DNA from: Nitrospirota bacterium
Lineage (GTDB): Bacteria; Nitrospirota; Thermodesulfovibrionia; Thermodesulfovibrionales; SM23-35
Direction of reading: 5' to 3'
NCBI GenBank assembly: GCA_014859105.1
Contig: JACUUX010000012.1
Span: forward strand, 1-56,098
DNA length: 56,098 nucleotides
Below the pieces are notes generated by a model. It worked only from the letters and a program-made list of their open reading frames with translations. It had not been told where the DNA came from and did no database searches. This document shows, piece by piece, positions 26,008 through 51,600 of this stretch. The stretch's first letter is position 1. The number at the start of each line of letters is the position of its first letter. Made by a program: the position numbers and the translations under genes.

Positions 26008-27912
26008 TTAGAAGAATATCTTCCACTCAAGATGCGGATACCAGTATGATTTACGCCCGGAACTCCCGATAATAGTATCATCTAAGTCCCGTTTATTATG
26101 GTTAAAGTACATGGTTCCTAAAAGAAGATACGTCCTCGGACTTAAGTAGTATGTTACACAGGTATCAATAACCCTTGAATGGAAAGGATAATATCCAACA
26201 GCTATCTGATCTTTACTGAAATTTTGATTATAGAAGTAATTATTTGACAGATAGTGCACTGTACCTTTTCTCCTGTAGCCTTTCACATTAAACGGATTTA
26301 TCCAATAATCACTCCCCCATGTCACATCAAACCAGAAGACAACTTTGTCATTAATCAAATTGCCTGTGTTAAACCCGACAAACCAGGCACGTCCTGGAAA
26401 ACTGTCACCCTCGTAAAACTTTTCGTAAGTACGGTCACCGACTCTTTCATATCCATGCTGTGGGTCTTCCGGATCTACCCCTTTGGTTTGGAGCGCAGCC
26501 AATCCTTCTTCAGAGAATGTCCATCTATGCTTGTGAGGAGCGATTTTAAAGTGACTATAATAAAATGCCCCATATACCTGAAACCGCCAGATCTGCGTGT
26601 CTAACCAGATTCCACCTAAATGGTAGGGTTCTGGTTCAATATAGGGAACAACAAGCTCATTTTTTAACCCGTCAGTATAGGGCTCAGTCCCTTTGAACGT
26701 ATGGCCACTCGAAGTATAAAAGGTGTAACGAGGCATGTAATAATTGTCCATATAAGCATAATTAAAGAATACCTGTGTATCCTCAGTTAGTTTCAGTTGA
26801 AGCTGAGATATAAAGACATTTGAATCAGGACCCTTACCGTCGATGCCCATAAGGTTTTCAAACTTTCCTCCAGGTCCGCTCAGACTCTGATCAGCGTATT
26901 TAAGATAGCCGATATATAGTTCATTTCTCTCTTTCAATTTCTTAAAATAGTTCGACCGGGCAATTCTACTAAATTTTCTTTCTTTTTCGGTCTCTGTCGG
27001 TTCCGGTTGTTCCCCTAAAAGGTTACAACGCAATTCTGTAAATGTATCCTCAAAAGGAAGTTTAGGAAGTTCAACATTAATCAATCCACCTTCGATTTCT
27101 GAATCGACAAATAATCTTGGAAAAATCGTGTTAGATGATCTTGTAGGCGGCCCTTCATAGCCGGGAAGCCTTCCGAATATTAATTTTGTGGGTAATATTT
27201 CATTATAATAAAGGTACGGCGGTTTCGCCACAGCATAAAAGTTTTCCAGCCTCGGTGTGATATCGCCGCTCTGATGTGCTGCCCAGGAATTCATCCAGTC
27301 ATGAGGATTGTCCCCTGCTCCTATGTATGTGATATTTCCAAACCTTTTATTTAAGGTCAATCTCCCATAAATATCAAGGTACTCAGGAATAACGGACGAC
27401 TCAAGATTGAGTCTGAATCTCATAGGCCAGGAATTGTAGTCCTCTTCATCTTTGTCTTGATCAGGGATTCCAGGGTATACAAAGTCTGCAGGAGTATCTG
27501 CAAATGTCGCATCGGCACGGAATCGAATTTCTCCTGAGAGTTTTATACGCGTTTTGTCCTCCAATTTTTTAAGGGTGTCTTCCATTTTATCCAGGATGCC
27601 TGCTTTTTCTTCCAATCTGGTTAATTCCGCATCAGCTTCTATTACCCTTTCTGCCTTTTTTTCAACCTCTTCGATCTTCTTTTCAGTTTCAACGGTCTTC
27701 ATCCGGGTCTCAGCCTGTTTCTTCTCTAAATCCTCTATCCTGTTAAGAAGTTCTTCCATATCTCTTTTAAGCTGTTGTTCCTGTTGCTGGAGTCTCCTGA
27801 TCTCATTTTTCAGTTCTTCGATTTCCGATGCTGATCCCACAGCCACCGCAGGTATAACTAAAAATAAAAACGAAACGAGACAGAGCAGCAGAGAGAATCC
27901 CGGTCTATTCAT
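26008..27912 (-). CDS. Outer-membrane beta-barrel porin with coiled-coil N-terminus (DUF3373-like)
   Basis: 634 residues. It has a signal peptide (cleaved near residue 25), then a heptad coiled coil (about 30-125, rich in E, K, L and Q), then a long barrel domain of alternating aromatic strands (SGEIRFRADATF, WPMRFRLNLE, FGRLPGYEG, YWYPHLEWKIFF) ending in Phe, as outer-membrane barrels do. The coiled coil probably crosses the periplasm or binds peptidoglycan. It lies 18 bases after tupA and before tupB/C, which suggests it is the outer-membrane channel for the same oxyanion. That role is inference. Confidence 0.8.
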   Translation of the reverse strand: MNRPGFSLLLCLVSFLFLVIPAVAVGSASEIEELKNEIRRLQQQEQQLKRDMEELLNRIEDLEKKQAETRMKTVETEKKIEEVEKKAERVIEADAELTRLEEKAGILDKMEDTLKKLEDKTRIKLSGEIRFRADATFADTPADFVYPGIPDQDKDEEDYNSWPMRFRLNLESSVIPEYLDIYGRLTLNKRFGNITYIGAGDNPHDWMNSWAAHQSGDITPRLENFYAVAKPPYLYYNEILPTKLIFGRLPGYEGPPTRSSNTIFPRLFVDSEIEGGLINVELPKLPFEDTFTELRCNLLGEQPEPTETEKERKFSRIARSNYFKKLKERNELYIGYLKYADQSLSGPGGKFENLMGIDGKGPDSNVFISQLQLKLTEDTQVFFNYAYMDNYYMPRYTFYTSSGHTFKGTEPYTDGLKNELVVPYIEPEPYHLGGIWLDTQIWRFQVYGAFYYSHFKIAPHKHRWTFSEEGLAALQTKGVDPEDPQHGYERVGDRTYEKFYEGDSFPGRAWFVGFNTGNLINDKVVFWFDVTWGSDYWINPFNVKGYRRKGTVHYLSNNYFYNQNFSKDQIAVGYYPFHSRVIDTCVTYYLSPRTYLLLGTMYFNHNKRDLDDTIIGSSGRKSYWYPHLEWKIFF

Positions 27913-27930: not shown

Positions 27931-28749
27931 TTAATTAGCATTCGGTATAAACAGCTGATTACCATATTTATCCTTGAATGATGCTATAGCATGCTGGCCA
28001 TCTCTGGATATAATCCAGTTTATGAATTCCATAGCCTCTTTATATTTCACATGTCTATGTCTTTCAGGATTTACAGCCATAACACCGTATTGATTAAACA
28101 ATACAGGGTCACCTTCAAGGACAATTGTCATTTCGAGTCTATCCTTTTCTTTTGTGGCAAGCCACGTGCCTCTGTCTGTCAGGGTGTAGGCGCGCTTTTC
28201 ATTGGCGATACGCTGGGTTTTTTCCATGCCCTGGCCGACTTCAAGATACCATTTTTGTCCTTTCGGGTCAATATTTATTTTTCCCCAGATTGATAATTCT
28301 TTTGTATGGGTACCTGATTTATCTCCTCTCGATACAAAAGGGAATGCACTTTTCGCAATGTTACGGAATGCCCCGGCAGCAGAATTTAATCCTTTGATCT
28401 GCACAGGATCATCAGGAGGGCCAATAATTATAAAATCGTTATACATCACATCATGACGGTCTAAAAAATATCCCTCCTCTACAGCCTTTAACTCAAGCTC
28501 CTTTGCATGTACAAAAACTACATCAGCATCTCCTCTTTTCCCTATCTCTATCGCTGCGCCAGTACCAACAGCCACCACATCTACCTTGATTCCCGTCTTT
28601 TTCTCGAACAAAGGCAGGATGTAGTCAAGCAGGCCCGAATTCTGCGTGCTTGTGGTCGATGCACAACGAATCCTTGTTTCAGCAAAAACAGTGGAGATAA
28701 GAATTACCGATAGAATCAATACCATCAGAAAAAAACTTTTGATTTTCAT
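27931..28749 (-). CDS. tupA: Tungstate-binding periplasmic protein
   Basis: 272 residues with a cleavable signal peptide (ending in VFA). The mature protein begins with the TupA signature CASTTSTQNSGLLDYILP, whose TTST residues bind the oxyanion. It has VDVVAVGTGAAIEIGKRGDADVVFVHA and the arginine/serine site FVSRGDKSGTHTKE. It supplies substrate to TupB/TupC further along the cluster. Molybdate selectivity cannot be excluded. Confidence 0.9.
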   Translation of the reverse strand: MKIKSFFLMVLILSVILISTVFAETRIRCASTTSTQNSGLLDYILPLFEKKTGIKVDVVAVGTGAAIEIGKRGDADVVFVHAKELELKAVEEGYFLDRHDVMYNDFIIIGPPDDPVQIKGLNSAAGAFRNIAKSAFPFVSRGDKSGTHTKELSIWGKINIDPKGQKWYLEVGQGMEKTQRIANEKRAYTLTDRGTWLATKEKDRLEMTIVLEGDPVLFNQYGVMAVNPERHRHVKYKEAMEFINWIISRDGQHAIASFKDKYGNQLFIPNAN

Positions 28750-28879: not shown

Positions 28880-29656
28880 CTATTTCCCCATAACGGATGG
28901 AATAGCATCCGGATAAAAAAGATTCATTCCATGTTTTTTGTAATTCCCTATTAATTTTTGACCTTCAAGCGATGTTACAAAGGCTATAAAATCCATAGCC
29001 TCTCTGTATTTAACATGCAAAAATCTATCAGGATTAACAGAAATAACACTGTAGTTATTTCTCAATACTGGGTCGCCTTTAAACAGTACTTTTAAAGTGA
29101 CCTTTGATTCATAATTGAGAAATGTTCCTATATCACTCAGTGTGTAGGCTTTCTTCTGATTTGCGGTAAGCAAAGTATCTCCCATTTTTGCCCCTGCCTC
29201 GAAATACCAGCCTTTCCCTTTGGGGTTGATTCCGGCATCATCCCAGATATCCATTTCCTTCATATTTGTTCCTGAGTCATCCCCTCTTGATACAAAGGGA
29301 TCGCCTTTCTCTGCGATTTCCTCAAAAGCCTCTATTGCTGTCTTACATTTACCGATCTTAGCAGGATCATTGCCGGGTCCGACAATTACGAAATCATTAT
29401 GCATGACAGCCCTTCTGTTCACACCATATCCCTCGGCAACAAATTTTTCCTCCCTGAATGGGTCATGAACAAAAAGTAAATCAGCTTCTCCTTTCTTAGC
29501 AATCCGTATTGCTTTGCCGGTGCCAACTGCGATAATTTCAACCTTGACATGATATTTTGTAGACTTTTCATAGGCAGGGATAAGGATGTCAAAAAGCCCT
29601 GAATTTTGTATGCTTGTAGTCGATGCTATTACTAACTTATTCTTTCCTCCAGACAT
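28880..29656 (-). CDS. TupA-like oxyanion-binding protein without signal peptide
   Basis: 258 residues from the ATG of MSGGKNKLVIAS, chosen because GGGAGG stands seven bases upstream; a longer start at 29683 adds only MNQIKREAN. All ligand motifs are kept (STTSIQNSGLFDILIP, VGTGKAIRIAKKGEADLLFVHD, FVSRGDDSGTNMKE), but no signal peptide is present with either start. It may therefore act in the cytoplasm as an intracellular tungstate buffer or sensor, or be exported by another route. It is upstream of tupA, in the same direction, and is preceded by a perfect palindrome. Confidence 0.82.
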   Translation of the reverse strand: MSGGKNKLVIASTTSIQNSGLFDILIPAYEKSTKYHVKVEIIAVGTGKAIRIAKKGEADLLFVHDPFREEKFVAEGYGVNRRAVMHNDFVIVGPGNDPAKIGKCKTAIEAFEEIAEKGDPFVSRGDDSGTNMKEMDIWDDAGINPKGKGWYFEAGAKMGDTLLTANQKKAYTLSDIGTFLNYESKVTLKVLFKGDPVLRNNYSVISVNPDRFLHVKYREAMDFIAFVTSLEGQKLIGNYKKHGMNLFYPDAIPSVMGK

Positions 29657-29726
29657 ATTTGCCTCCCTTTTTATTTGATTCATTTATTCCCGAACATCAC
29701 ATATATATTAAAATTTTCTAATAATT

Positions 29727-29842: not shown

Positions 29843-30655
29843 TTAATCAAGCCTGTAAACTATCGGTATTATTATCCGTGCCTCTACAGGCGGTTTTGGT
29901 AAGGGTGATGCATCGTTAACCGCTTTAGTAGCGCCTGTATCAAGAACTTCTTTGCCGGAACTTTGTATCACTTTTATATCCCTGACATTTCCATCAGAGG
30001 ATATGATAAACGAAACTTTAACCCTTCCTTCCCATCCCATCTGTCTTGCCAATCTTGGATAAGTTACCTTTTTTTGAATCACGTCCCTTATGTATGAAAA
30101 GTTCTCCTTCAGATACCTGCTCCTGCGGAGCATATCAGAATCAGAATTTCCATAGCTGCCGCTGGATGTCAATTTAGTGCCTTTCCCTGCTAAGCCACTC
30201 CCCCCCAGCTGGCCTCGCATACCATCGCCTGTAGAAGTCGAAAAATTGGTTTGCACAGACTGTACTGACTTGTATTGAAAATCTGCAGTTTCAGGATAGG
30301 CTGAGACCGGAACTTCTCCTTCTGATACTTGTACCTGAGTGTCAAGGGTTGGTGTTGGTACTATTACCTCTTTTGATTCTTTGACCTCCAGTTGTTGTTT
30401 CTTTGTCTCCGTTTCCCTGTTTATGACCTTTGGCTTCCGCTCCCTGATTTTTGGTTTATTTTCAGGCTTTGTTTTTGCAATATCTACTGTTCCTGCTCCC
30501 GAACTTTCTCCATTCATTGAATCCTCGATACTAAAGTCAATAACTATTACACTATTGGCTGGAACAACAGAGGAACTACTCATGCCAATAATAATGAGAA
30601 TAATCAATGCATGGAAAGCAAGAGAAAACTGGACTGCTTTAAATTGATACCTCAT
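29843..30655 (-). CDS. tonB: TonB energy-transducing protein
   Basis: 270 residues. One N-terminal membrane anchor (about 8-28, with the conserved His at 16 in SLAFHALIILII), then a charged/proline-containing linker (50-185), and a C-terminal TonB domain (about 190-270, YPRLARQMGWEGRVKVSFIISSDG). It couples the proton-driven ExbB/ExbD motor to outer-membrane receptors. It is last in the operon after the receptor and the repeat lipoprotein. ExbB/ExbD are in the neighbouring operon. Confidence 0.92.
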   Translation of the reverse strand: MRYQFKAVQFSLAFHALIILIIIGMSSSSVVPANSVIVIDFSIEDSMNGESSGAGTVDIAKTKPENKPKIRERKPKVINRETETKKQQLEVKESKEVIVPTPTLDTQVQVSEGEVPVSAYPETADFQYKSVQSVQTNFSTSTGDGMRGQLGGSGLAGKGTKLTSSGSYGNSDSDMLRRSRYLKENFSYIRDVIQKKVTYPRLARQMGWEGRVKVSFIISSDGNVRDIKVIQSSGKEVLDTGATKAVNDASPLPKPPVEARIIIPIVYRLD

Positions 30656-31366: not shown

Positions 31367-33340
31367 TTAAAGATTAACCGTTACCCCCCCATAAATAAAT
31401 CGCCCAGCCTGGGGGAATCCATAACTTTCTTCATAATCTTCATCAAAGATGTTATCTGCCCCGAGATAGAGATTCACTCGACCTTTCAGTAATGCTTGAT
31501 TGAGTTTTAGATTGAACAATGTATAATCATTTAATTTTTTCTTTTCTAAAGGGGTTGTCCTTGAATAAAAAACCTGGTCGGCCACGTGCATAACATTCAT
31601 ATATGCTAAAAGACCAAAATTGAAGGAATATCTACTCTCGAAGGTAACAGTATGTTTAGGCCTGTACTGGAGTTCATCCCTTTCAGTGCCCGGCGACTTA
31701 TCTTTTGTGTATACGTATGTGTATCCTGCCCTCAACAGAAGGTTCTTCAGGTATCGATTCTCTGCAGCCAGTTCAGCACCCTTAAATTGATATTTTGCGT
31801 TGTTAATAAATTTAGTGCTTACAGTTTCAATAAATTCAATATAATCCTTTGCATCGATGAGAAAGCCGGTCAGAGTAACTTTACTGTTCAAGGGGAGCTT
31901 CTGCTCGATTCCAAGTTCGTAATTGTTGGATTTTTCTGTTTTCAAATCAGGATCTCCTCGACTTACGTCATAGAGCTGGCGAATGTCAGGAAACCGTATC
32001 TTCCTTGCAAAAGAGCCCCTTATCCGGGTATTCTCATGGATGTCGTAATAGGCTCCTACGAGATAACTCCCCTCATTATCGTCACCTTCGTCCTTTTCCA
32101 GCCAGTTATGACTGTAACCAAAAACCAGGCCTAAATTCTTTAAGGGAACCACTTCATACTCAAGAGCGGCTGTATAGACGTTGATATCTCTTTCATCCCG
32201 TACATCCACACGCCCGGTACGGGTTATATCGTACCCATCGACCTCCCATTCTTCTTCTCTGCCTTTAAGCCCGAGCGTTAAAAAGCCGGCTGTCTTCAGA
32301 TCACATGTTGTCTGTAAGGCAGCCCCTTTGATTCTTGTTTCATTATTGTGATGGAATGTACCATTACGAGTTATTGATTCAAAATTGCCATCGTCATACC
32401 GGTTCTCTTCCTCTGTCAATTGATTGAAAAAGATCCATGATCTCAGTCCGAAAGGTCCGGGCAAATCATAGCTTAGTGAAAGATGCCCGGAATAACCTTC
32501 AAAATTATCCATTCGTTCATATCTTTGTGCATCTGAAAAATTATCCCTGGGGAAAATTGTGGTCGAAGGTTTACCGAATTCTCCTTTAAGATAGTTAAAA
32601 ACCGCTCCGATAAGCACTTTGTCACTGGGAGCAAAATTCACATTTGCAAAGAAATTATTTCTCCTTTTGTCACTATTTTCTCGAATGCCCCCATCTTCTT
32701 CAGGTGTTTTGTCAAAATCATCAGAAAGGCGGAATCCATTCCTTTCGAGAACACTCCCGCTGAGGAAAAAGTCAACCTTTTCATGGACTCCGGAAAAATT
32801 AAAGCTGCCCAGATAATGATCTCCCTCTCCTGCCTCGCCTGAGACCATGCCATGAACACCCTTCTTCCCTCTCTTTGTAACGATGTTGATAACTCCACCG
32901 AGCCCTCCATCTCCGTAGAGCACCGAATGTGTACCATAAGAAACTTTTATCTTCTCGATGCTCTCTACAGGTATCAGACTAGGGTCAAAATTACCATCAA
33001 AACTGGAATTGATGGGAATACCATCGAGAAGGAGAATAACGTGTCTCGAACGAAAACCCCTGAGGTCCACCCGGGGAACCCCATCAGCCCCTGTCCTCAT
33101 ATACAGACCCGGCAACAACTCTATTGCTTCATCCAGAGTCCTTGCTCCTTTGCTTTCAATATCTTCTGCTGTAATCTCCCGAACTGTCCCGACAGCCTCA
33201 ACACCCTCTCTTTCCGCTTTTACTACAACTTCACCGAGTGTATAGGCACCTGTGCCTTCCTGCATCTCTGAACAAACCACGGCTGGAGCAGTCATCCAGA
33301 TAAAAATCCACATTAGGAAAAGCAATAAAATCTTCCTCAT
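31367..33340 (-). CDS. TonB-dependent outer-membrane receptor 1
   Basis: 657 residues with a signal peptide. The TonB box region is YTLGEVVVKAE. The plug domain (about 45-165) has GARTLDEAIELLPGLYMR, DLRGFRSRHVILLLDGIPIN and GGLGGVINIVTK. The 22-strand barrel follows, ending in the aromatic-flanked VTVNL. Its size suits siderophore, cobalamin or other metal-complex transporters; the ligand is not predictable here. It heads the operon with the repeat lipoprotein and tonB, under a promoter shared in design with receptor 2. Confidence 0.9.
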   Translation of the reverse strand: MRKILLLFLMWIFIWMTAPAVVCSEMQEGTGAYTLGEVVVKAEREGVEAVGTVREITAEDIESKGARTLDEAIELLPGLYMRTGADGVPRVDLRGFRSRHVILLLDGIPINSSFDGNFDPSLIPVESIEKIKVSYGTHSVLYGDGGLGGVINIVTKRGKKGVHGMVSGEAGEGDHYLGSFNFSGVHEKVDFFLSGSVLERNGFRLSDDFDKTPEEDGGIRENSDKRRNNFFANVNFAPSDKVLIGAVFNYLKGEFGKPSTTIFPRDNFSDAQRYERMDNFEGYSGHLSLSYDLPGPFGLRSWIFFNQLTEEENRYDDGNFESITRNGTFHHNNETRIKGAALQTTCDLKTAGFLTLGLKGREEEWEVDGYDITRTGRVDVRDERDINVYTAALEYEVVPLKNLGLVFGYSHNWLEKDEGDDNEGSYLVGAYYDIHENTRIRGSFARKIRFPDIRQLYDVSRGDPDLKTEKSNNYELGIEQKLPLNSKVTLTGFLIDAKDYIEFIETVSTKFINNAKYQFKGAELAAENRYLKNLLLRAGYTYVYTKDKSPGTERDELQYRPKHTVTFESRYSFNFGLLAYMNVMHVADQVFYSRTTPLEKKKLNDYTLFNLKLNQALLKGRVNLYLGADNIFDEDYEESYGFPQAGRFIYGGVTVNL

Positions 33341-33759: not shown

Positions 33760-34140
33760 TCAGGTCTTCTCCTCTGTCTGCAGGCTCACTTTTTTGAATC
33801 CGAGGTTCTTTACAACATCAAGAACACTGACGAAAATCTGGAGGCTTATATTTTTATCTGCCCTTATGAGAATCGGGATATTTTTATCCATAGGTCTGAG
33901 AGACTGTCTCAGATCATCAACTGATAGATATCTGGAGTTCAAATATATATCACCTTTTTTATCTATATCTATGGTTTGATTTTTCAGAATATCTTCATAA
34001 CTCTTTGATGCCTTTGGAAGCTCAACAGGTATAATTCCTGTGGCAATGAATGTAGAAGTCGTGAGTACTATAGTAAGAAGCACGAGCATTACATCCACAA
34101 GCGGGATGACATTAATATAATCAAACTCTTTCTCTTCCAT
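33760..34140 (-). CDS. exbD: ExbD proton-channel subunit
   Basis: 126 residues with one N-terminal membrane helix carrying the essential proton-carrying Asp ([19 protein letters not shown]). The periplasmic domain ([35 protein letters not shown]) matches ExbD/TolR. Its start overlaps exbB by 20 bases, so translation is coupled. It is last in the receptor 2 operon. Confidence 0.92.
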
Positions 34141-34555
34141 TCCTGATCTCCCATTGCAGGATAAGAACCTTTACCTTCCTTAAAAGAAAATTATAAAGTG
34201 CAACTGATGGGATAGCCACCAGAAGTCCTACAGCAGTTGCCTTTAAAGCAAGAGCCAGTCCAACCATGATTTTACTTGTTTCAACAAACCCTTCCACTCC
34301 CATAGTATAAAATGTGAGCATAATTCCGAGAACTGTACCTAAAAGTCCAATATAGGGAGCGTTACTCCCGATAGTTGCTATAACATGAAGCTTCTTTGTC
34401 AGATCAATCTCAAGTGACTTTTTATCTAAAAAGTTTTCTAATTTAATATGTCTATAAACCATATACCTCTCTATAGCAATTGCGACTGCAATAATACTTA
34501 GGATGATTAAAAATCCGATGATTCCGTACTCAACTGTATCTTTAAGCCATTCCAT
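34121..34555 (-). CDS. exbB: ExbB motor subunit, short form
   Basis: 144 residues with three membrane helices and the family motif [25 protein letters not shown]. Helix 3 ([22 protein letters not shown]) lines the channel. This is the short ExbB version found with TonB systems of several anaerobes. It overlaps the permease gene upstream by 14 bases. Confidence 0.92.
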
Positions 34556-35870
34556 TATCGTATCCTCTTTGTAATTTTTTATTTTTCCAAAAATAAAACG
34601 GCAATCCAGATAGGGTAATCAGAATTCCGGCTATTGAAGTCACTGGCTTGTCGTACATAATTTGAACAGCAATCACCGAATAACAACCAATAAACAAAAT
34701 AGGGACAACAGGATAAGCCCAGGTGCGGTAAGGCCTATGCATATCAGGTTTACGCCAGCGTAATACAAGGTGAGCAAACCCTGTTGCAATAGATGATAAT
34801 AGCATAACAAAGACAACATAACTTAAAAGCTGTTCAAATGTTCCTAACAAAACTAAACTGGATGCCAGGAACATCTGGCTCAGAATAGAAAGATGCGGGG
34901 TATTATAGAAGGGGTGGAGTCTTTTTAAAGGAGACCAAAAAATCTTATCTGCAGCCATTGCATAATAAATACGAGCACCGGCAAGGATAGTAGCATTTAT
35001 ACTTGCGGTAATGGCAAGGATGATGGAGAAAGAAATAATGTTAGTGAAAACCGGGCTAAACAGCTCACCTGCTGTAAGTTGTGCTACATTAACAATCCCT
35101 TTAAGACCTGAAAGTGGAAGTGCGTAAAGATAGGTGATGTTAATAAGAGTATAAAGGATAGCAACAATACTCGTTCCGAGAAGGAGAGAAAGGGGGAGAT
35201 TGCGTGTAGGATTTTTTACTTCATCACCAATGTAAGCAGAAACAAACCAACCACTGTATGTAAAAATTACTGCAATCATTGCTGGTCCAAAAAGTTTATC
35301 AACCGGTATCGATTCGGCATGATCAAGAGTAAAGTGATGCCAATTTCCATTTTGAGATATCAAACCTCCTGCAATTAAAGCTACAACAATAAACAGATTC
35401 CCTAAGGTGAAAATATCCTGTGTTGTTCCACCTAAGCGGACACCTCGGTAATTGATAAAAGAGAGAAAACAAATAATCCCTATTGCGAATAATTTTTCTG
35501 AGAAAATAGTATTAAACAAGAAAAAATGTTTCACATAATTTATTAAGGCAATCGATAGTGCCGCAACAGAACCTGGATTAATAATCCAGAAGCTTACCCA
35601 TCCCACGATAAAGCCAGCCCATCGGCCATATGCAGCTTTTAAAAATTGGTAATCTCCGCCTGAATACGGGAACATACCGGCCATCTCAGCATATGTTAAA
35701 GCTCCACATAGTGTAAGGAGTCCTCCAATAACCCAAATACCTATGAAAAAAATCGGGTGGGGCAGTTCACCAGCTAAAAAACCGCTTGTTGTGAATATGC
35801 CTGCCCCAACAACATTCCCGATAACAAGGAGGGTAGCATCGAAGAGGTTAAGTCTTCGTTTTAATTGCAT
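34542..35870 (-). CDS. APC-superfamily amino-acid permease
   Basis: 442 residues and about 12 membrane helices. The helix 1 break [16 protein letters not shown] (substrate-binding GAGIF) is typical of LAT/APC transporters, with [28 protein letters not shown] following. It sits inside the receptor/ExbBD operon, between the haem-methylase fusion and exbB, with overlaps on the exbB side. Its position suggests that the imported ligand or a breakdown product is an amino acid or amine. That is inference. Confidence 0.85.
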
Positions 35871-35871
35871 T

Positions 35872-37617
35872 TTATTGCAGGCATGGTCCGATATAAATCA
35901 TTCCCAGAGACTGCTCTTCCTCTTTTTCCGTAATGTTCATGATATCGCGAAATGTGGTCTTTATGAGGCGTTCACTGTCAGAATATCCCGCCCTGTACAC
36001 GACAGTCACAGGAGTTGTTTCGGGATAATATTTCCGGAAAAGGGGCATCAGATTCTTCATCTCCCTGAGGCCGATGAAGATAACGAGAGTATCGCCGCTT
36101 TCAGCCACAGATTTCAATAAGGCTTCATTGGCCTTCAGCCCCTTCGGAACGGTAAGAATGATTGATCCTTTGCATTCCTCGCATAAAACGTTTCTGATCA
36201 TTGCATTCGATACATTAAAAGCGCTGAGACCCGGAATAATCTCTATCTGATCCATAAACTCCTGGAGCCAATATCTCCAGCTTCCGTAAAGCGTCGGGTC
36301 GCCGTATTCCAGCAGGGCAACATGTTTTCCTGCTTTGATGGCATCTCGTATTGACTGAATATTTCCAGCCCTCTGGTCTTCCAGTTTTTTCTTCGCTTCC
36401 GCGTCCGACAGGCCCGGGTTCATTTTTCTGAAAAAGGGCTCTGCATTCAGGAGAGGATCAAAGAGCACGGTTTTATTCCCTATATATTTTGCAAACCTGT
36501 TTCTTATGTCCTCAGTGCAGAGAAAAGCATCCGCTTTCGCCATCTGTGAAACAGCTTCCAGTGTGAGAAGGCTTGTGTCACCGCACCCCACACCGATGAT
36601 AGAGAGTTTGGGCTTTTGCTTGAGCGAGATAACCTCTATTCTGCTCACGGCCTTTACCCATCTGTCTGCCGAGAGGTCATCAGGGAGGAGAGCAATAAAT
36701 TTGCCGTTCTCTTTCAGTGGTTGTCCTTCGGCCATATCGGCTATGATGATATTGCGACCGTACGGTCCATAAAATAATTCACCATATGATATGAGTGACC
36801 GGTAACCGTCAGGGGCGGAAATGAGTATGACGGAATTCATATCGGGGTTAATACCGGCTTTCTGTATTATTTCAGTTAATGGAACGCCAGCATAGGTATT
36901 TAAACCGTGATATCCTTTCCCGTCTCCCGTCGTCTTGGCGAGAGCTTCAAGACGCGGATAAGAAGAAATATCAGAGATCTCCAGCTGCTTCTTAACACTT
37001 CCACTCAGCACAAATTTTGGGGAGAAGAGGTTTTTCATTTTCTGTGAAGTCATCGATGGATGAAGGTCAATGACCTCAATCGAAGTAATGTTTTCCAGAG
37101 AACGGTCTGTATAGAAATCAATTGAGACGATAAGCTTGGGCAGCCCGACGTCACGCTTCAGATGATCAAACCATGGTTTGAAAACCTCAGGTGTGTGGCA
37201 TCCGGAACATTCTTTATGGGGCATAATCGGTGTTGCTGAGAAAGCTATAAGAACCTCTGCAGGGTTCCGGTAAAATATTTCTCCCCATGAAAGTACAGTC
37301 TGTTGTCCTTCCTTATTCTTTATAACAATCGCCATATCAACAGGTTTAAAGAAATCGGATTCTTCCTTCTGAACAGTCGCGAGTTCGAGCAGTGTTCTGA
37401 GCGGTACCCCGCGATAGGAGAATACTCCGTGAAAGTTTTTGTCCGAGGTGACTTCATTCAGTCTGGCGTTTACGGATTCGAACCTGCGGATGTCATCCAT
37501 GGACAAATTTAAAGGCTGTTTAACTACACCTGTAATGCTTATAGATGATGAAAATGCTACTCCTGAAAAAACAAAAAGAATAAATATAACAAATACAACC
37601 CCTAAAATTTTCTTCAT
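35872..37617 (-). CDS. Exported CXXCH haem protein fused to a tetrapyrrole methylase domain
   Basis: 581 residues. An N-terminal signal peptide (MKKILGVVFVIFILF...) is followed by two repeats of a sulfite-oxidase-like, molybdopterin-binding-type fold (about 25-130 and 203-330) that lack the usual Mo-binding Cys. The first ends in a single c-type haem motif CSGCH (137-141). Residues about 337-581 are a complete SAM-dependent tetrapyrrole methylase: GVGCGDTSLLTL, EYGDPTLYGSW (437-447) and PGLSAFN (462-468). A methylase of this class is normally cytoplasmic, so export of it with a haem is unexpected. The genes just upstream, resB and ccsA, could ligate this haem. Function unknown. Confidence 0.75.
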   Translation of the reverse strand: MKKILGVVFVIFILFVFSGVAFSSSISITGVVKQPLNLSMDDIRRFESVNARLNEVTSDKNFHGVFSYRGVPLRTLLELATVQKEESDFFKPVDMAIVIKNKEGQQTVLSWGEIFYRNPAEVLIAFSATPIMPHKECSGCHTPEVFKPWFDHLKRDVGLPKLIVSIDFYTDRSLENITSIEVIDLHPSMTSQKMKNLFSPKFVLSGSVKKQLEISDISSYPRLEALAKTTGDGKGYHGLNTYAGVPLTEIIQKAGINPDMNSVILISAPDGYRSLISYGELFYGPYGRNIIIADMAEGQPLKENGKFIALLPDDLSADRWVKAVSRIEVISLKQKPKLSIIGVGCGDTSLLTLEAVSQMAKADAFLCTEDIRNRFAKYIGNKTVLFDPLLNAEPFFRKMNPGLSDAEAKKKLEDQRAGNIQSIRDAIKAGKHVALLEYGDPTLYGSWRYWLQEFMDQIEIIPGLSAFNVSNAMIRNVLCEECKGSIILTVPKGLKANEALLKSVAESGDTLVIFIGLREMKNLMPLFRKYYPETTPVTVVYRAGYSDSERLIKTTFRDIMNITEKEEEQSLGMIYIGPCLQ

Positions 37618-38399
37618 ATATCCTCCTTTTTGTTATTTTTAATGTCTCTGTTAATTTTTGGGAAATACCACAACATAAGCAAAATCAGAACAGTAAAGCC
37701 GACCAGAATCAGTCGTACTCCGGGATCACGTTTTATGGAAATTTTTAATTCAGGAGACTTACTTGACCTTTTATCCATACCAAGATGGAAACTGTACCCC
37801 TGCCAGTAAAGGGGATGTAGAAAACTAATATGTTTTTGTGCCGTATCCCCCTGTGTTTGCAGTTCAAAGGAAACAATGCATTGTTTAATAAACCCCTTGA
37901 GAGATTCAGGTGATATGTAATAATCACATTTTTGCTCTGTTATCTCTATATCTGACTGTATCGGCAACGATGTCTTCGCTCCGGCTTTTGCCGGTAGCAC
38001 CCCGTTATAACCTGATATCATGCTAAAGAGGTGTCCGCACAGGATTACGAGAAAACAGATATGGGTTAAGGAAGGAGTGATTTTCAGGAAGAATATCTTA
38101 GTGCTCATTTGTTTCCGTTTTGAAAAAAGACTAATCAACCGGTTCAGGGTACATACACCCGTATTAATCCCAAAGGCAAAGAGAGAGACCAGAAGTATCA
38201 CCAGCCACCATAGTTTTTCAGGATAATATTGACCGTGAAGTATAAACCAGTCCTGAAATAGAGAATGATTCAGGTGCTTAAAAATCTGAGGATTGTACTT
38301 GACATAGTAAGAACCTACGGCAAGACCGGAGGCAATAATCAACAAAAGCCAGAAGGTTACCTTAACACTGCCACAGAAATTCCAGATTTTTTTCAACAA
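37614..38399 (-). CDS. ResB-like cytochrome c biogenesis protein (short)
   Basis: 261 residues with four membrane helices. The N-terminal motif GSVKVTFWLLLIIASGLAVGS and the periplasmic domain (FLHPLYWQGYSFHL) match ResB/CcsB, but the protein is shorter than the usual 330-450 residues. With CcsA it forms the system II haem-ligating complex that attaches haem to CXXCH proteins. It overlaps the haem-methylase gene by 4 bases and follows ccsA directly. Confidence 0.78.
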   Translation of the reverse strand: MLKKIWNFCGSVKVTFWLLLIIASGLAVGSYYVKYNPQIFKHLNHSLFQDWFILHGQYYPEKLWWLVILLVSLFAFGINTGVCTLNRLISLFSKRKQMSTKIFFLKITPSLTHICFLVILCGHLFSMISGYNGVLPAKAGAKTSLPIQSDIEITEQKCDYYISPESLKGFIKQCIVSFELQTQGDTAQKHISFLHPLYWQGYSFHLGMDKRSSKSPELKISIKRDPGVRLILVGFTVLILLMLWYFPKINRDIKNNKKEDI

Positions 38400-39158
38400 T
38401 TAATTGCCCCCCAACCGCAGCATATTCATTTCGCTAAAATGGCTGCTATAGCTAAAGAAAAGGAGCAAGATAAAACCTGCCAGAGAAAAAAGTGCCTTTT
38501 TCTTCATATCCCAGGCAGGTAAAAAACGCAGATGTAAGAAGGCTGCATAGAAACACCATACAGTTGCTGATTGCATATGCCTGTCGCTCCAGTTAAAGAG
38601 ATTTGCCCAGCCTAAATAACACCAGATGGCACCGACTACCTGTGCAATGCTGTAAAAAATAAACCCCCAAATGACCATGGAATGGAAGATTCGTGCGTTT
38701 TCTTTTCCTTGCAGGTATAAAAGAGAAAACCATGCTCCCAGGCCAAAAAATGCATGGGCAAGGATTTCAGAAAAATGAAATAGAGGTGAGAAAATAGTCT
38801 TCACCTTTGGAGAAGGGGGAAATATTCCTTTAGGATAAATAAGAGCTATGAGCGAGAGAAACAAAATAAGTATAAGTGCAGTGTAACCCAGGTCCCTATC
38901 CTTAATGAACAGCCTCAGTCCCAATACCAGAAAAGCCAAACACCACGGCAAAAAAAAGACCCCTTCGAATATCGCATTAGGGGTAAAGATACCGATAAAC
39001 CATCCCCGGCTGATCTGGCTTATTGTATGAAGAACAAAGGCGGTGATGAATAAAAACTCAGCAAGCCTCTCCTTTTTCAAAAAGAAAAAGAAGAGGCTAC
39101 CCGTATACCCGCCTATTGCAGTATGCAAACATGTCAAAGAGACGCTGTATAGAGACAT
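38400..39158 (-). CDS. CcsA/CcmC-type cytochrome c assembly protein (divergent)
   Basis: 252 residues with about eight membrane helices. It keeps conserved histidines (LHTISQISRGW, HFSEILAHAFFGLGAWFSLLYL, FYAAFLHLR) of haem-handling proteins. The tryptophan-rich WGxYWxWD signature is degraded to WCYLGWANLFNWSD, losing the usual Asp. It may bind haem differently, or be specialised for one client. It lies directly between receptor 2 and resB with no gap. Confidence 0.75.
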   Translation of the reverse strand: MSLYSVSLTCLHTAIGGYTGSLFFFFLKKERLAEFLFITAFVLHTISQISRGWFIGIFTPNAIFEGVFFLPWCLAFLVLGLRLFIKDRDLGYTALILILFLSLIALIYPKGIFPPSPKVKTIFSPLFHFSEILAHAFFGLGAWFSLLYLQGKENARIFHSMVIWGFIFYSIAQVVGAIWCYLGWANLFNWSDRHMQSATVWCFYAAFLHLRFLPAWDMKKKALFSLAGFILLLFFSYSSHFSEMNMLRLGGN

Positions 39159-41273
39159 TTAAAAACGTGCGGCCAATCCAACGTAAAAGCTCCGCCCAGG
39201 TGCAGGAAACCCAATTTCTGGTTCATAATTTTCATCCAAGATATTATTAATGGCCACATAACCTTCAAAATATTTGGCGAAACTCTTTGAGACCCTCGCA
39301 TTCATAACGTAGTAGTCATCAACTTCGATCACCTCTGCTGTCGGTCTATCTGGTGTAGGAAGCTGACTGTAAACTTTTCCCATGTAGAGACCTGTGAGGT
39401 CAAGACGGGTCTTTATATAGGGAATAGTATAGTATACCCCCACATCTACTTTATGTTCCGGGACATTGACAAAATCCGTTGTTACCCGGTTAGGACTTCT
39501 ATCCCGGGCGTTAATGTAGGTGTATCCAGCCCGCACCAAGAGATCCTTTACTGGATTGACTTCTCCTGTCAACTCAACACCTGCCAGGCCAACCTTGGCA
39601 AAATTTTCATATGGCGCATCACGGTCCGGAGTTGCCCGTGCGATAAAATCATCAACGTCATGATAAAAGAATGCCAGTTCACCTCTCGCATAACTGGAAA
39701 AACTATGTGAAACTCCCAGTGTATAATTAATGCTCGTTTCAGCTTGTAAATCTAAATTTCCGCCCCTCGAATGATAAAGATAAAACAGGGTGGGAAATCT
39801 TACCTTCCGGGCTATAGAACCGAAGAGTCGTGTGGAATCGAAAAGGTTATAAGTCATACCAATCATGGGGTTAAGCTCGTCCATCGTGTCCGGCTTCCCT
39901 AAATCATCCTGTCTTATAAAATCGCCTGTATTACTATCAGTTATGTTCTTTTTGGCCTCGGTCACCTTATACCAATCATAACTTGCTCCTACAACCAAGG
40001 ATAGATTCTGTATTTTGTTGAACTCATTCTCTAACGCCAGTGACCCCGTGTGAGATATTCTCTCTTCAAATGGCAGATATGTGTCATCTCGCTGTTTATG
40101 ATTTTCGTCCCTGTACTGAAAAGCAAACCGCAGGATATCCCATTTTACAGGTCTAAAATCTGCCGAAAAGGATCCACCAATCAGATGATCTTTATATCTG
40201 CTTGAAGCTAATTTGTTCGTGAAGTTATAGTCTGAATAACTATCAAAATCATCCACGTGATTGTGGTAAAACAATTTGGCCTTCAGGGTTAATTCATCAG
40301 TGATTTTCTGCTGTCCGCTCAAGTCTATCCCCCAATCGGTATATTTTGGCAGCTCGGCAAAGTGAGAGAAGGCTGGTCTAAATGTAATAACTCTTACGCT
40401 CTCTACATGGGGTGGATAAGCCTTTTCTCTGTCTATGTAATGGAAATTGATATAGTATTCGCCCCCTTCAGGTTCAATGCCCACTTTAGCCCAGATACTA
40501 TCACTTTTAAAATCAGAATTATTGCGAACGCCACCATCCTCAAAAACTGCCTCAAGTGGTGGCGGTGGTGGTGGTGCTGGTCCCTGCCTTGTAATAGTTC
40601 CGAGAATTGGCTCGTAGTCATCAGACATTCTCCATCCATTAGACTCATGATGTGTATAATTTAACCAGTAATTGAAGATACCTTTTTTCATGCCATGGGA
40701 AAGGGAGAATTTATACGTGGCATAGTCTCCGACTTCCGTGAATGCTTCAAAAGAAGGTTTTTCAGTAGGTTTTTTTGTAATGATATTGATTACACCTCCT
40801 AATGCATTCGGTCCATAGAGCACTGATGAACCACCTTTGGTTATCTCAATTTTCGCGATGTTGTCGACAGGGATCTGGTTCAGATCAAGTTTGCCATAAT
40901 TGGTTTCGTAGTAAGGAACGCCATCAATCAAGACCAGGTTTCTGTTCTGCGAAAAACCACGGATTTGAATATCCGGCTCATTTTTAAAACCCGTCGAAAC
41001 TCGAATTCCTGGGACGTAACTCAATGCCTCGGCAACTGTCCTACTGTTTGTGGACTTTATTTCCTCTTCAGTAATCACTGTGGTTACAGCTACATCCCTC
41101 ACAGCCGGTAACCTCTCTCCCTTTACAAATATCTCGCCGAGGTCAAACACTTCATATTCTGGTTGTTCTCCCGATTTCATGGCTTCTTGAGCCCGTGCTG
41201 GAGCAAAGAAAATAAATAGAGTGACTATTAAGACAGGAAATGAACACGTCAGAAACCTTGAATGGATTGTCAT
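39159..41273 (-). CDS. TonB-dependent outer-membrane receptor 2
   Basis: 704 residues with a signal peptide (cleaved after ARA). TonB-box region FDLGEIFVKGE. The plug has TVAEALSYVPGIRVSTGF, IQIRGFSQNRNLVLIDGVP and GPNALGGVINIITKKP. The barrel ends in GLAARF. It differs from receptor 1 throughout the barrel, so the ligand probably differs or the two recognise forms of one ligand. It heads a seven-gene operon: receptor, ccsA, resB, haem-methylase fusion, permease, exbB, exbD. Start supported by AAGGAGG. Confidence 0.9.
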   Translation of the reverse strand: MTIHSRFLTCSFPVLIVTLFIFFAPARAQEAMKSGEQPEYEVFDLGEIFVKGERLPAVRDVAVTTVITEEEIKSTNSRTVAEALSYVPGIRVSTGFKNEPDIQIRGFSQNRNLVLIDGVPYYETNYGKLDLNQIPVDNIAKIEITKGGSSVLYGPNALGGVINIITKKPTEKPSFEAFTEVGDYATYKFSLSHGMKKGIFNYWLNYTHHESNGWRMSDDYEPILGTITRQGPAPPPPPPLEAVFEDGGVRNNSDFKSDSIWAKVGIEPEGGEYYINFHYIDREKAYPPHVESVRVITFRPAFSHFAELPKYTDWGIDLSGQQKITDELTLKAKLFYHNHVDDFDSYSDYNFTNKLASSRYKDHLIGGSFSADFRPVKWDILRFAFQYRDENHKQRDDTYLPFEERISHTGSLALENEFNKIQNLSLVVGASYDWYKVTEAKKNITDSNTGDFIRQDDLGKPDTMDELNPMIGMTYNLFDSTRLFGSIARKVRFPTLFYLYHSRGGNLDLQAETSINYTLGVSHSFSSYARGELAFFYHDVDDFIARATPDRDAPYENFAKVGLAGVELTGEVNPVKDLLVRAGYTYINARDRSPNRVTTDFVNVPEHKVDVGVYYTIPYIKTRLDLTGLYMGKVYSQLPTPDRPTAEVIEVDDYYVMNARVSKSFAKYFEGYVAINNILDENYEPEIGFPAPGRSFYVGLAARF

Positions 41274-41645: not shown

Positions 41646-42551
41646 ATGGAAGACCACAGGTTGAAGGCATTCTGTCTTGTTGTTGAGATGAAGAGCTTCT
41701 CAAAGGCAGCAGAAGCAAAATTCATGACGCAATCCGCCATGAGCCACCTCATAAAGAATCTCGAAGATGAAATGGGAATAAGATTATTCATCAGAAAGGC
41801 CAAGGCGGTCATACTAACACCTGCCGGTAGAATTCTTTATGAACATGCAAAAAAGATCCTCAAACAATACGAAAATATGGAGGGTGAAATTTATGCCTTC
41901 TCTAAGAAGATAAAAGGCCCCTTATATATGGGTGCAAGTACTATTGTTGCAACTTATTTACTTCCGCAAGTCTTTTACAATTTCTCTAAAAATTATCCTG
42001 AGGTGCATATAGAACTCTTTGTATCAAATACTGAAACAATAATAAATAGCCTTTTTGAAGGCAAAACAGATATTGGAATCGTTGAGGGGCAAATAAGAAA
42101 CTCGAAAGTTTATTTGGAAGAAATTGCAGAGGACGAGATAGTCATAATTGCATCTGATGAAAACCCTTTATTAAAAAAACAGCCGCTGACAGATCAGGAT
42201 CTTGTATCCCAACCATTCATAATGCCTGAGGTGGGTTCGGGAATTAGAGAATTTATAGATGATTTCTTTATTGATGCAAAAATAGATACTAAGGATATAA
42301 GGGTTGCTATGACCCTTGCTAATCCAGAACTGGTTGTTCAGATGGTACAGGCGGGGATCGGCATATCTTTTGTTTCAAAATGGGCTGTCTTTAAAGCAAT
42401 AAAAGATGGGTCAGTCAAACTTTTGAATATATCAGACAAGAAACTGAAGAGAAAATTTTATCTTGTCAGTATGGAAAAAGAGCCCTCAACAATAGTAGGG
42501 AAGACTTTCTGGGAATTTACAAAGGGATATAGATTTTTCATGCCTTTCTAA
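41646..42551 (+). CDS. LysR-family transcriptional regulator
   Basis: 301 residues. The N-terminal winged helix-turn-helix (about 3-62, FSKAAEAKFMTQSAMSHLIKNLEDEMGIRLF) is followed by a periplasmic-binding-like effector domain (about 90-290, GPLYMGASTIVATYLLPQV, VQMVQAGIGISFVS). It is divergent from receptor 2, the standard LysR arrangement, and the T-N11-A palindromes before both receptor operons are its likely targets. The effector is unknown; the imported ligand is a natural candidate. Confidence 0.88.
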   Translation: MEDHRLKAFCLVVEMKSFSKAAEAKFMTQSAMSHLIKNLEDEMGIRLFIRKAKAVILTPAGRILYEHAKKILKQYENMEGEIYAFSKKIKGPLYMGASTIVATYLLPQVFYNFSKNYPEVHIELFVSNTETIINSLFEGKTDIGIVEGQIRNSKVYLEEIAEDEIVIIASDENPLLKKQPLTDQDLVSQPFIMPEVGSGIREFIDDFFIDAKIDTKDIRVAMTLANPELVVQMVQAGIGISFVSKWAVFKAIKDGSVKLLNISDKKLKRKFYLVSMEKEPSTIVGKTFWEFTKGYRFFMPF

Positions 42552-43676: not shown

Positions 43677-44621
43677 TTAAAAGAAAATCCCGCGAAGCCC
43701 CTGTATTTTCGCCTTCAATTGTATTTCTAAATCCAACATACTTTTATATTCGATCCTGTCAAGACCTGCCAGGTCCGAGATTACCTTAGAATTCTTTTCC
43801 AAAATCAGGATTGCGGGCTTCCCGAAGCCGTAGGCAAGACCAAGCTCCCAAGTAACATTTGGTTCGGGTTTATTACATTCGTTGCAAACCTCCGAAATGT
43901 CATAAATACCAAATTTCGACGAACGGATTTTATGACATATCTTACATTTAATATCACCTCTAAGTTCTTGGTCAGCATAGTATGGTTTGATAACCGGAAA
44001 TACCGTGCCTATTGCTCTATCGATAGCCGTTCTCAAATCATCTATTTTTTCCATAGTAAATTTATGTGCCACAAAATACTCATTTGTTGGACGTATATCA
44101 TCTGTACAATATTTGTGTATTATTGGACACCAATGCCTAACTACCTCCGCGAATATGTCCTTAATTGCTTCAGGGTTGTCTAATCGACTAACGACATCAA
44201 GGATAATCTCAGCCCTTTCACCTGTGCTTTTAAGCAATGAGCCTTTTAAGGCTGTTATTGCTCTTATATCAGTGAGTCGCTTAATGTTAGCAATAAGGCA
44301 CTCAGAAGCTTTTCTATAAAGTCGCAGCTCGCTCTCAGTTCCCAGTATGCCTATCAAGACCTCAATTCCCTGAGCATCTTCGACATCGGAGAAGATATCT
44401 ATAACATGCCAGCGAATTGTTTCATCTGGATATTTCAAAAGTTTCCTTAAAGGAGATATCAAAGAATTAATAAACAACGGGAGAGGAGTTGGTATAGGAA
44501 ACCCCCTAATTTCCTTCAATGCTTCTCTAACGACGACTGGATCATCTGACTCAAGAATCTCCGTCAGTCTTATAACATCACTGTTCTCTACCATTTTTTT
44601 GATGTCGTTTGAGGTCATCAT
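43677..44621 (-). CDS. HEAT-repeat protein with TIR-like nucleotide-hydrolase-type domain and zinc knuckle
   Basis: 314 residues. Residues about 10-165 are alpha-helical HEAT-like repeats (DPVVVREALKEIRG, DETIRWHVIDIFSDVEDAQGIEVLI). From about 180 there is a TIR/deoxyribosyltransferase-like fold: YFVAHKFTMEKIDDL, then PNVTWELGLAYGFGKPAILI with the likely catalytic E259. A zinc-knuckle insertion (C226, C229, C246, C249) interrupts it. Related domains degrade NAD or bind nucleotides in anti-phage defence. It lies 84 bases downstream of the type III CRISPR genes on the same strand, so it may be their effector. It has no CARF or SAVED sensor. Role inferred, not shown. Confidence 0.65.
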   Translation of the reverse strand: MMTSNDIKKMVENSDVIRLTEILESDDPVVVREALKEIRGFPIPTPLPLFINSLISPLRKLLKYPDETIRWHVIDIFSDVEDAQGIEVLIGILGTESELRLYRKASECLIANIKRLTDIRAITALKGSLLKSTGERAEIILDVVSRLDNPEAIKDIFAEVVRHWCPIIHKYCTDDIRPTNEYFVAHKFTMEKIDDLRTAIDRAIGTVFPVIKPYYADQELRGDIKCKICHKIRSSKFGIYDISEVCNECNKPEPNVTWELGLAYGFGKPAILILEKNSKVISDLAGLDRIEYKSMLDLEIQLKAKIQGLRGIFF

Positions 44622-44705: not shown

Positions 44706-45461
44706 TCAGTTAACTGGAGTAACGGTAATTCTTACCCTGCCGCAACCTCGTGATTTAAAGCCTCCAAAGAATTGAAGGTTTTGCAGTCTATCAATAATGA
44801 GATCCTTTATAATCTTTTCTTCTGTCCATTCACCGGATTCAAGCCATTTATCGCCGTTAGAATCCGAAAGGCTGCGGGATTTCCCAAACTTCCAGCCTAA
44901 AATATCATCCTCTTGAAGCAAGTAAAGATTCCCCTTGAACGTATTGCCTTCAGGAATAACCTCGAATTTACCGATCCTTCCCTTCGCCGAGACTCCAGTT
45001 ACCCTATCTATGCCTATAAATTGCAATCTGGCTATTTCTTCGATCTCCATATTCAAGAAAGGTACAGATGCAAAGCCGGTCAGCCCTCTTGCACCTAACA
45101 GATAACATATAGGGCATATGGAACTATCAAAGCCAGGATAGCTACAGCAGTATTTATATATGCCCTGGTCAACCAGTTTTTTCTCGTCATTAGAGATACT
45201 TCTTTCGTCGGCTGGAATACATGGCTGAGTCCATTGGTCTTTCCATTTCTTATTAGCCTTATCGTAAGATGTATCAATTAGATATCTTTCCAGTTCTGCA
45301 CGATATGCACCCTTAAGAGATGTACTTTGCACTACTATCCTATCTCCTACACGGACAACAGGGCTGTCCACATCGGTAGTGCCGGGTATTGGTCTTTCCC
45401 CTCCAATTCTAAAAGGTGTCAGTGTCTCCAATTTAATCTCAAACTCCCTCCATTTACGCAT
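44706..45461 (-). CDS. Type III CRISPR Cas7-like RAMP protein (Csm3/Csx7-like)
   Basis: 251 residues from the ATG of MRKWREFEIKL, supported by AAGGAGG nine bases upstream. LTPFRIGG and VVQSTSLKGAYRAELER are the RAMP RNA-binding signatures (S-S/T-x-K-G). CPICYLLGARGLTGFASVPFL is typical of Csm3/Csx7. The C-terminus has the glycine-rich loop FFGGFKSRGCGRV. It would form the backbone along crRNA. An aspartate for target RNA cleavage may lie near the N-terminal third but cannot be placed with certainty. It is the only clear Cas7 in the locus. Confidence 0.78.
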   Translation of the reverse strand: MRKWREFEIKLETLTPFRIGGERPIPGTTDVDSPVVRVGDRIVVQSTSLKGAYRAELERYLIDTSYDKANKKWKDQWTQPCIPADERSISNDEKKLVDQGIYKYCCSYPGFDSSICPICYLLGARGLTGFASVPFLNMEIEEIARLQFIGIDRVTGVSAKGRIGKFEVIPEGNTFKGNLYLLQEDDILGWKFGKSRSLSDSNGDKWLESGEWTEEKIIKDLIIDRLQNLQFFGGFKSRGCGRVRITVTPVN

Positions 45462-45462
45462 C

Positions 45463-45744
45463 TTATCGGCCCTCCTTAAAAGACTTAATTGCATTCAGTT
45501 TTTTAAATACTAAAGTGCCTATCTCTTTTGGTATTTTTCTTTCTTCAATAAGACCAAGTATTTTTAAAAGTACCTTTGTCTGTTGCTCATCCTTCTTTCT
45601 TCCAACCAAGAAAAGACGTACTGACCCATATCCATATCTTGTGCACATCTCACCAACATCGTTTAAAAGACCGCCACTAAAGTAAGTTGTTTTCACATCA
45701 TTGTCTCTTTTTATTATTTCTATTAATTCGTCAACGTTATCCAC
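45463..45744 (-). CDS. Small protein of the type III locus, candidate Cas11
   Basis: 93 residues starting at GTG, with AAGGAGG nine bases upstream. It sits between the two RAMP genes with one base to the next. The C-terminal half is helical (TKVLLKILGLIEERKIPKEIGTLVFKKLNAIK). No family is recognised. Position and size suggest the small helical subunit (Cas11), though it is shorter than Csm2 or Cmr5. Confidence 0.6.
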   Translation of the reverse strand: MDNVDELIEIIKRDNDVKTTYFSGGLLNDVGEMCTRYGYGSVRLFLVGRKKDEQQTKVLLKILGLIEERKIPKEIGTLVFKKLNAIKSFKEGR

Positions 45745-45757
45745 TCTTATCGCCTCC

Positions 45758-46441: not shown

Positions 46442-46443
46442 CT

Positions 46444-48423: not shown

Positions 48424-48519
48424 TCTCACTCTCCTGTATAGCTCTCAATGCCTTTGATAAAACAACATAGAGATTATAACACTTTTCTTTTTAGAAGGAG
48501 TAAATGGATTGAGGTGTTC

Positions 48520-49413: not shown

Positions 49414-49506
49414 AGTCCAAAAGTTTTTTAGTCTACAAGTCTAAGAGTTTTTGCTTTTGAAATCTGTTCAACTTTTAGACTTCCTGACTTTTAGACTCTT
49501 AGACTG
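49414..49506. repeat. Inverted-repeat block at the distal end of the CRISPR array
   Basis: AGTCTACAAGTCTAAGAGTT...AACTTTTAGACTTCC...TTTTAGACTCTTAGACTG, the same family as 43496-43565 and 48520-48554, immediately before the first, most degenerate CRISPR repeat. Confidence 0.6.
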
Positions 49507-49511
49507 TCGTT

Positions 49512-51542: not shown

Positions 51543-51556
51543 TACAAACCTTCAAA

Positions 51557-51600
51557 GCCCCCCTTACCCCCCTTTTCTAAAGGGGGGGCGTGGGGGGATT
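51557..51600. repeat. C-rich dispersed repeat between cas2 and cas1
   Basis: CCCCCCTTACCCCCCTTTTC followed by TAAAGGGGGGG, the clearest hairpin copy of the family found inside ogg, tupC and rmlC. It lies within the cas operon and could modulate read-through. Confidence 0.55.

Follow-up and report, generated by a model that had tools for sequence, protein, structure and literature searches.

A signal-peptided fusion of two sulfite-oxidase-like domains and a tetrapyrrole methylase fold in a putative TonB-linked tungstate/molybdate uptake operon of a Nitrospirota bacterium

The uptake of tungstate and molybdate has been described mainly for the inner membrane (ModABC, TupABC and WtpABC). To our knowledge the passage of these oxyanions across the bacterial outer membrane is poorly known, and we know of no sulfite-oxidase-like (SUOX-like) partners among the parts of the described ModABC/TupABC systems with molbindin (Mop/TOBE). 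The locus analyzed here resembles these systems in its Tup-type ABC genes and in the position of SUOX-like genes near Mod and TOBE genes in relatives, but it also encodes a TonB receptor and a multi-domain protein predicted to be exported. The molybdophores of Azotobacter (PMC3440940) appear comparable with respect to the uptake of chelated molybdenum; in contrast, no chelator genes were recognized at our locus, and the accessible part of that publication mentions no SUOX-like partner. With sulfite oxidase, SorA and SoxC the exported protein shares the Oxidored_molyb domain (PF00174), present in two copies above the Pfam cut-off; unlike in these enzymes, the copies are of a short stand-alone type without the cysteine ligand to molybdenum, a haem loop is inserted, and the gene is linked to transport genes. 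With the cobalt-precorrin-4 C11-methyltransferase CbiF/CobM (TIGR01465; PDB 4e16, 1cbf) it shares a class III methylase domain over the whole length, and CbiF is closest to its C-terminal half. This half differs, however, in its score of 82 bits, its own long branch, a GCGD loop, the predicted export and the fusion to SUOX-like domains. CbiK of Desulfovibrio and HmuS of Bacteroidota (PMC13227078) are likewise tetrapyrrole-enzyme folds reused around haem handling, but they are chelatases, not methylases, and have no SUOX-like part. A literature search, thin in subscription journals, found neither a paper on a PF00174-PF00590 protein nor one describing SUOX-like proteins in a TonB-linked Mo/W system. 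Each part is of a familiar kind; the way in which they are combined and the repeated association of short SUOX-like domains with Mo/W uptake look new.

The DNA analyzed, called the window in the following, is a stretch of 56,098 nt from contig JACUUX010000012.1 of a Nitrospirota bacterium (lineage SM23-35, assembly GCA_014859105.1). As assembled in the contig, the gene at 35872..37617 on the minus strand is one unbroken, ATG-initiated open reading frame of 581 amino acids. Reading frame, Pfam and hydrophobicity together delineate a signal peptide (residues 1-22; 37552..37617, minus strand), a first SUOX-like domain (D1) with a CXXCH motif, a second one (D2) and a tetrapyrrole (TP) methylase. 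The N-terminus, MKKILGVVFVIFILFVFSGVAFS, is of the Sec type: KK is followed by about 19 hydrophobic residues, and VAFS precedes the likely cleavage site. Hydrophobicity amounts to 2.96 across residues 4-22 and to at most 1.35 everywhere past residue 40. This call, made by hydrophobicity and the -3/-1 rule, agrees with the original prediction of a signal-peptided N-terminus, and a signal peptide is also present in the protein of a relative described below. A search by hydrophobicity for a second membrane span revealed none after the signal, and the methylase half of the exported fusion is therefore predicted to be located in the periplasm. The alternative raised earlier, a methylase facing the cytoplasm, is not what this topology predicts. 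AlphaFold2 on two sequences gave a mean pLDDT of 39.4, too low for a usable structure.

D1 (37048..37551) and D2 (36613..37029), both on the minus strand, were delimited by Pfam and alignment. PF00174 matched in two stretches with 48.6 bits (cut-off 24), and the halves exceeded the cut-off also when scored singly (27.4 and 29.2 bits), so that the two sulfite-oxidase-like folds claimed originally are both found; these scores and that of the methylase below lie far above what chance would give. An alignment with stand-alone SUOX-like proteins demonstrated that D1 and D2 are complete short domains and confirmed that neither has a cysteine at the position of the Mo ligand; some of the stand-alone proteins retain it (MVCQSG in Pseudomonas, LRCFTT in Burkholderia). 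The protein thus has the domain of a sulfite oxidase-type molybdoenzyme without its cysteine ligand to molybdenum. The single CXXCH motif, C137-H141 (CSGCH; 37195..37209, minus strand), is as originally described, evident from sequence and alignment and retained in the relative. It sits in a loop insert of D1 that the stand-alone domains lack. With its signal peptide and CXXCH the product is a candidate c-type cytochrome, with haem attachment being putative.

The TP methylase domain (35875..36609, minus strand; motifs GVGCGD, EYGDPTLYG, IIPGLSAFN and CEEC) was characterized by Pfam, alignment and a tree; it follows ISLKQK at once, without a linker. The TP_methylase profile PF00590 matches residues 337-559 over profile positions 1-211 of 212 with 114.5 bits (cut-off 27.8), which places the domain in this superfamily and supports the claim of a full-length methylase. 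The methylase motifs had also been called complete, which has to be amended in one point: the first motif reads GVGCGD and not the usual cobalamin-type GxGPGD. Outside the GPGD motif, 16 of 28 near-invariant columns are retained in the methylase half, and of the 85 columns that are near-invariant in CbiF it shares 29. The proteins for this comparison had been selected by a GPG-requiring pattern, so that GPG invariance is built in, and the motif columns were left out of the count. The core residues of the putative SAM pocket, GDP and PG, are retained, with GPGD reading GCGD. The latter is no proof of inactivity, since CobF, DphB and RsmI are active members of the superfamily that also lack this proline. 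CbiF (TIGR01465) was the best curated family, with a score of 82.1 bits where 259.65 are required for the equivalog. In a tree of 71 domains the methylase half forms a long branch and groups neither with CbiF nor with CbiL, its exact place being unsure because of the branch length and the pairing with another long branch. Among 396 sampled Nitrospirota genomes no close relative of this half was found; the best match reached about 33% and covered only part of the domain.

The host genome (completeness given as 100) contains three TP methylases in all; the other two, named by size and sequence, are a 556-residue CobA-HemD-like frame and an RsmI-like one. CbiC was not found in this genome, and the rest of the pathway expected around a corrin biosynthesis enzyme is lacking. 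There is consequently no corrin route that the methylase domain could serve, and precorrin methylation is unlikely. A riboswitch search of the window found neither a cobalamin riboswitch nor a Moco motif. The best reading of the methylase half is a divergent CbiF-like fold, acquired as a lineage-specific C-terminal fusion.

The sole close relative found lies in a Thermodesulfovibrionales MAG (JAVHLL010000001.1; G008, L005/L036 in our numbering) that belongs to the same family but to a different genus. Its protein, SUOX2, likewise combines a signal peptide with two SUOX-like domains and the CXXCH motif, shows 68-71% identity to the window protein and ends about 30 residues past the start of the window's methylase; no methylase adjoins the gene. 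Since SUOX2 of the relative stands alone without a methylase, the two halves are separable. The suggestion that they might be separate genes in relatives is thus borne out for the first half, which is free-standing, and not for the methylase, which is absent. With two genomes compared, a gain of the fusion in the window lineage is simpler than a loss in the relative. In 230 genomes searched, the N-terminal half had no carrier in the class besides the window and the relative, and a search of Nitrospirota genome contigs with an alignment of this half recovered only the relative's locus. No second carrier of the full fusion was detected in Nitrospirota genome contigs, and none in viral contigs. 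A 516-aa frame (L046) considered as a second fusion was rejected; it consists of two corrin-type methylases joined. Tracking of the amino-acid permease encoded next to the fusion gene, performed to seek the methylase cassette elsewhere, yielded nothing close in the class (best 34%).

The fusion gene is part of a presumed operon on the minus strand whose first gene encodes TonB-dependent receptor 1 (39159..41273; profile match, 62% identity to the relative). A CcsA-like haem-handling membrane protein (38400..39158; profile match) and a ResB-like membrane protein (37614..38399) follow, the latter with a TTG start as listed and a 4-base overlap with the fusion gene; it was recognized by sequence, the ResB Pfam score of its counterpart in the relative being below the cut-off. 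Profile matches identified, on the same strand, an amino-acid permease directly downstream (34542..35870), ExbB and ExbD (34121-34555 and 33760-34140), TonB-dependent receptor 2 (31367..33340), TonB (29843..30655), two TupA-like tungstate-binding proteins (28880-29683 and 27931-28749), and a TupB-like permease with an ABC ATPase (25082-25783 and 24315-25082). Divergently oriented (41646..42551, plus strand; profile match) is a LysR regulator of the selenium-metabolism family NF040786 (259.4 bits, cut-off 250), which is also divergent in the relative with a score just under the cut-off. The family of this regulator hints at a common control of selenium and tungsten/molybdenum genes.

In the relative the gene order is LysR (divergent), TonB receptor, CcsA-like, ResB-like, SUOX2, TupA, TupA, TupB and ABC ATPase, and the window shares this set at 47-79% identity gene by gene. 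Only the window has an insert after the fusion gene, comprising the amino-acid permease, ExbB, ExbD, the second TonB receptor, a lipoprotein and TonB; the permease and ExbBD/TonB are absent from the relative's locus. The window also has an exported protein of 634 residues between TupA and TupB (26008-27912, minus strand), with a coiled coil, then possibly a barrel, and without a Pfam match. In another Nitrospirota cluster with Mod genes (L170) an alginate-export-type porin lies beside ModA.

A TonB receptor, ExbBD-TonB and Mo/W-type ABC genes occur together in the window, as in a TonB-dependent Mo/W system, with transport being putative. The NCBIfam scores of the two TupA proteins (224.7 and 258.7, required 400) and of TupB (164.7, required 320) lie below the equivalog cut-offs, and both TupA proteins matched no other NCBIfam family at 1e-5. 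Because of these scores tungstate is only the best guess for the substrate of the ABC genes; molybdate or another oxyanion is possible. For both TonB receptors the siderophore, haem and B12 receptor families scored about equally, all below the cut-offs. Candidate tungstoenzymes of the aldehyde ferredoxin oxidoreductase type, a family that mostly uses tungsten, are encoded in the genome (PF02730, 189.5 bits). The TupA-like protein at 28880-29683 (minus strand) has no obvious signal peptide and the second copy has one; the pair occurs in both genomes, with 79% identity between the signal-less protein and its counterpart in the relative (L036:11047-11838), and the signal-less protein may store or sense tungstate in the cytoplasm. 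ResB-like proteins are widespread in the phylum, occurring in 73 of 296 genomes, and 20 such loci had no Tup, SUOX-like or TonB-receptor neighbor, ExbBD-TonB genes occurring in two of them. The ResB/CcsA pair therefore looks generic and may serve only to mature the haem of the cytochrome.

Other features were noted elsewhere in the window. A CRISPR array with 13 repeats at a spacing of 72-75 (49494-50429) is flanked by RAMP-like genes (44706-48429) and Cas4/Cas1-like genes (50699-52879), named by eye. Beside these type III-like CRISPR genes a HEAT-repeat protein (43677-44621, minus strand) with a weak, below-cut-off CAP12/Pycsar TIR match is a candidate effector. An exported protein of 998 aa (1157-4153, minus strand) has, by eye, aminopeptidase-like, ChaN-like and PDZ-like parts.

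The strongest new evidence is that short SUOX-like domains recur in the company of Mo/W uptake genes. On plasmids such genes are accompanied by ModA, TOBE and a permease (Deinococcus), by NifQ and a ModE-like regulator, in one strain also by ModA/ModB-like and Mop-like genes (Caballeronia), by a ModE-like gene (Burkholderia) or by ModD and Mop (Nostoc); on a P. aeruginosa plasmid the SUOX-like gene is overlapped by a TonB receptor gene, with moaA and nar adjoining. Counter to an uptake function, the SUOX-like genes of Rhizobium, Bradyrhizobium and Embleya lack Mo neighbors. When 376 Nitrospirota genomes were searched with a profile, 11 strong matches were obtained besides the window and its relative. 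ModA/ModB genes accompany eight of them, mostly together with TOBE; three of these eight loci also have ExbB and ExbD, and a fourth has ExbD. The remaining three have a common gene arrangement, made up of TonB receptor, TOBE-like protein, FecCD permease, ABC ATPase and TonB, receptor and permease being Pfam-confirmed in one locus each. Mo/W genes were found at none of seven weak matches examined and at none of 20 control loci of the same phylum. The linkage of strong matches to Mo/W genes is significant by Fisher's test (p 3e-6 by locus, 9e-4 with strong matches counted by genus), to be read with the caution that the profile drew in part on plasmid proteins whose location in Mo clusters was known beforehand and that the control loci were picked around ResB-like genes, not at random. 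Within these loci, double SUOX-like proteins lie beside ModABC and TOBE (L169, L173-L175), several with PEP-CTERM-like tails and some also near ExbB/ExbD; in L175 a type II secretion C-like protein (Pfam) is near. In L166-L168 a double SUOX-like protein with a PEP-CTERM-like tail lies near the TonB receptor, FecCD permease, ATPase and TonB, which possibly serve to take up a metallophore.

We read the protein of the window as a (redox) accessory that acts in the periplasm and belongs to an operon for the TonB-dependent acquisition of tungstate/molybdate, with a probability of about 0.5. Domain architecture, predicted export topology, gene order, the lack of the methylase in the relative and the linkage of SUOX-like domains to Mo/W clusters are computational results; the binding, redox and release steps and the role of the methylase we infer as follows. 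Receptor 1, powered by ExbBD-TonB, would import bound W or Mo, as a chelate, thio-complex or pterin cofactor, to the periplasm, where the SUOX-like domains, with the fold kept and the Mo-ligand cysteine lost, would reversibly hold the metal species or pterin instead of catalyzing a reaction. CcsA and ResB might fit haem to the CXXCH motif or supply electrons, and the haem could support a redox step that aids the release of the oxyanion, perhaps from a chelate or thio-complex. Periplasmic TupA would pass tungstate to the TupB permease and the ATPase, for the tungsten enzymes of the genome. The C-terminal methylase would most likely be a ligand-holding module without SAM chemistry. The full combination would be a new kind of machinery for acquiring metal, in which exported SUOX-like domains capture Mo/W, maybe as the whole Mo/W-pterin, after import by a TonB receptor and the class III methylase fold of this lineage is a SAM-free ligand module; we put it forward as a tentative and rather unlikely reading.

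A ligand-holding role without SAM is preferred since the protein is exported and its methylase frame has stayed intact across 245 codons; that the fused methylase is carried by one sequence only weakens the case. Nearly as likely, on this single fusion sequence, is that a small deletion joined SUOX2 to an adjacent methylase gene and that the domain is exported as an idle, decaying passenger. The tight joint (ISLKQK, then the methylase start), the restriction to one genome, the alteration of about half of the near-invariant columns and a somewhat different base composition of the methylase half (GC3 52% vs 43%) speak for such an accident. Against it stand the intact frame, a match of 114 bits from end to end and the lack of the GPGD proline also in the active CobF, DphB and RsmI, and overall we give it a low probability. 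Very unlikely is a working SAM-dependent methylase that stays in the cytoplasm through an internal start or through inefficient export: the retained core residues GDP and PG of the putative SAM pocket would suit such an enzyme, but no convincing internal start was recognized, the sole candidate near the joint being a GTG with poor ribosome-site spacing, and a corrin pathway as customer is missing.

A different proposal is that the operon acquires haem, sirohaem or corrinoid and that the exported methylase fold binds the imported tetrapyrrole; the periplasmic CbiK of Desulfovibrio would be a parallel. The chelatase-like HmuS of Porphyromonas (Bacteroidota), which participates in haem metabolism (PMC13227078), would by analogy be a second tetrapyrrole enzyme at the envelope. 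Signal peptide and predicted topology are compatible with this, CcsA/ResB haem handlers adjoin, and a genome that makes no corrin ring might need import. However, the gene order is shared by the relative, which has no methylase, the neighbors are tungstate-type ABC genes and not BtuFCD, the window lacks a cobalamin riboswitch, and only 29 of 85 CbiF-invariant columns are kept, so we regard tetrapyrrole acquisition as unlikely. The original prediction had proposed reuse of the methylase for tetrapyrrole binding; of this, a methylase with predicted export in a genome without corrin pathway stands, whereas support for tetrapyrrole binding did not emerge and the neighborhood points to W/Mo uptake. 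Least probable is a periplasmic oxidoreductase of the sulfite oxidase kind, with Mo/W-pterin turnover and the haem as electron carrier: the PF00174 fold in two copies and the c-haem motif would fit, but both domains lack the Mo-ligand cysteine and match short stand-alone proteins over their full length.

The pairing of short SUOX-like proteins with Mod/Tup and TonB genes recurs in several phyla; it supplies a marker at the gene level and a candidate that can be tested for the outer-membrane step of tungstate/molybdate uptake. Genes annotated as molybdopterin-dependent oxidoreductases may accordingly include transport accessories rather than enzymes. Should the exported methylase prove to hold a ligand independently of SAM, it would clearly exemplify how a biosynthetic fold can be reused beyond the cytoplasm.
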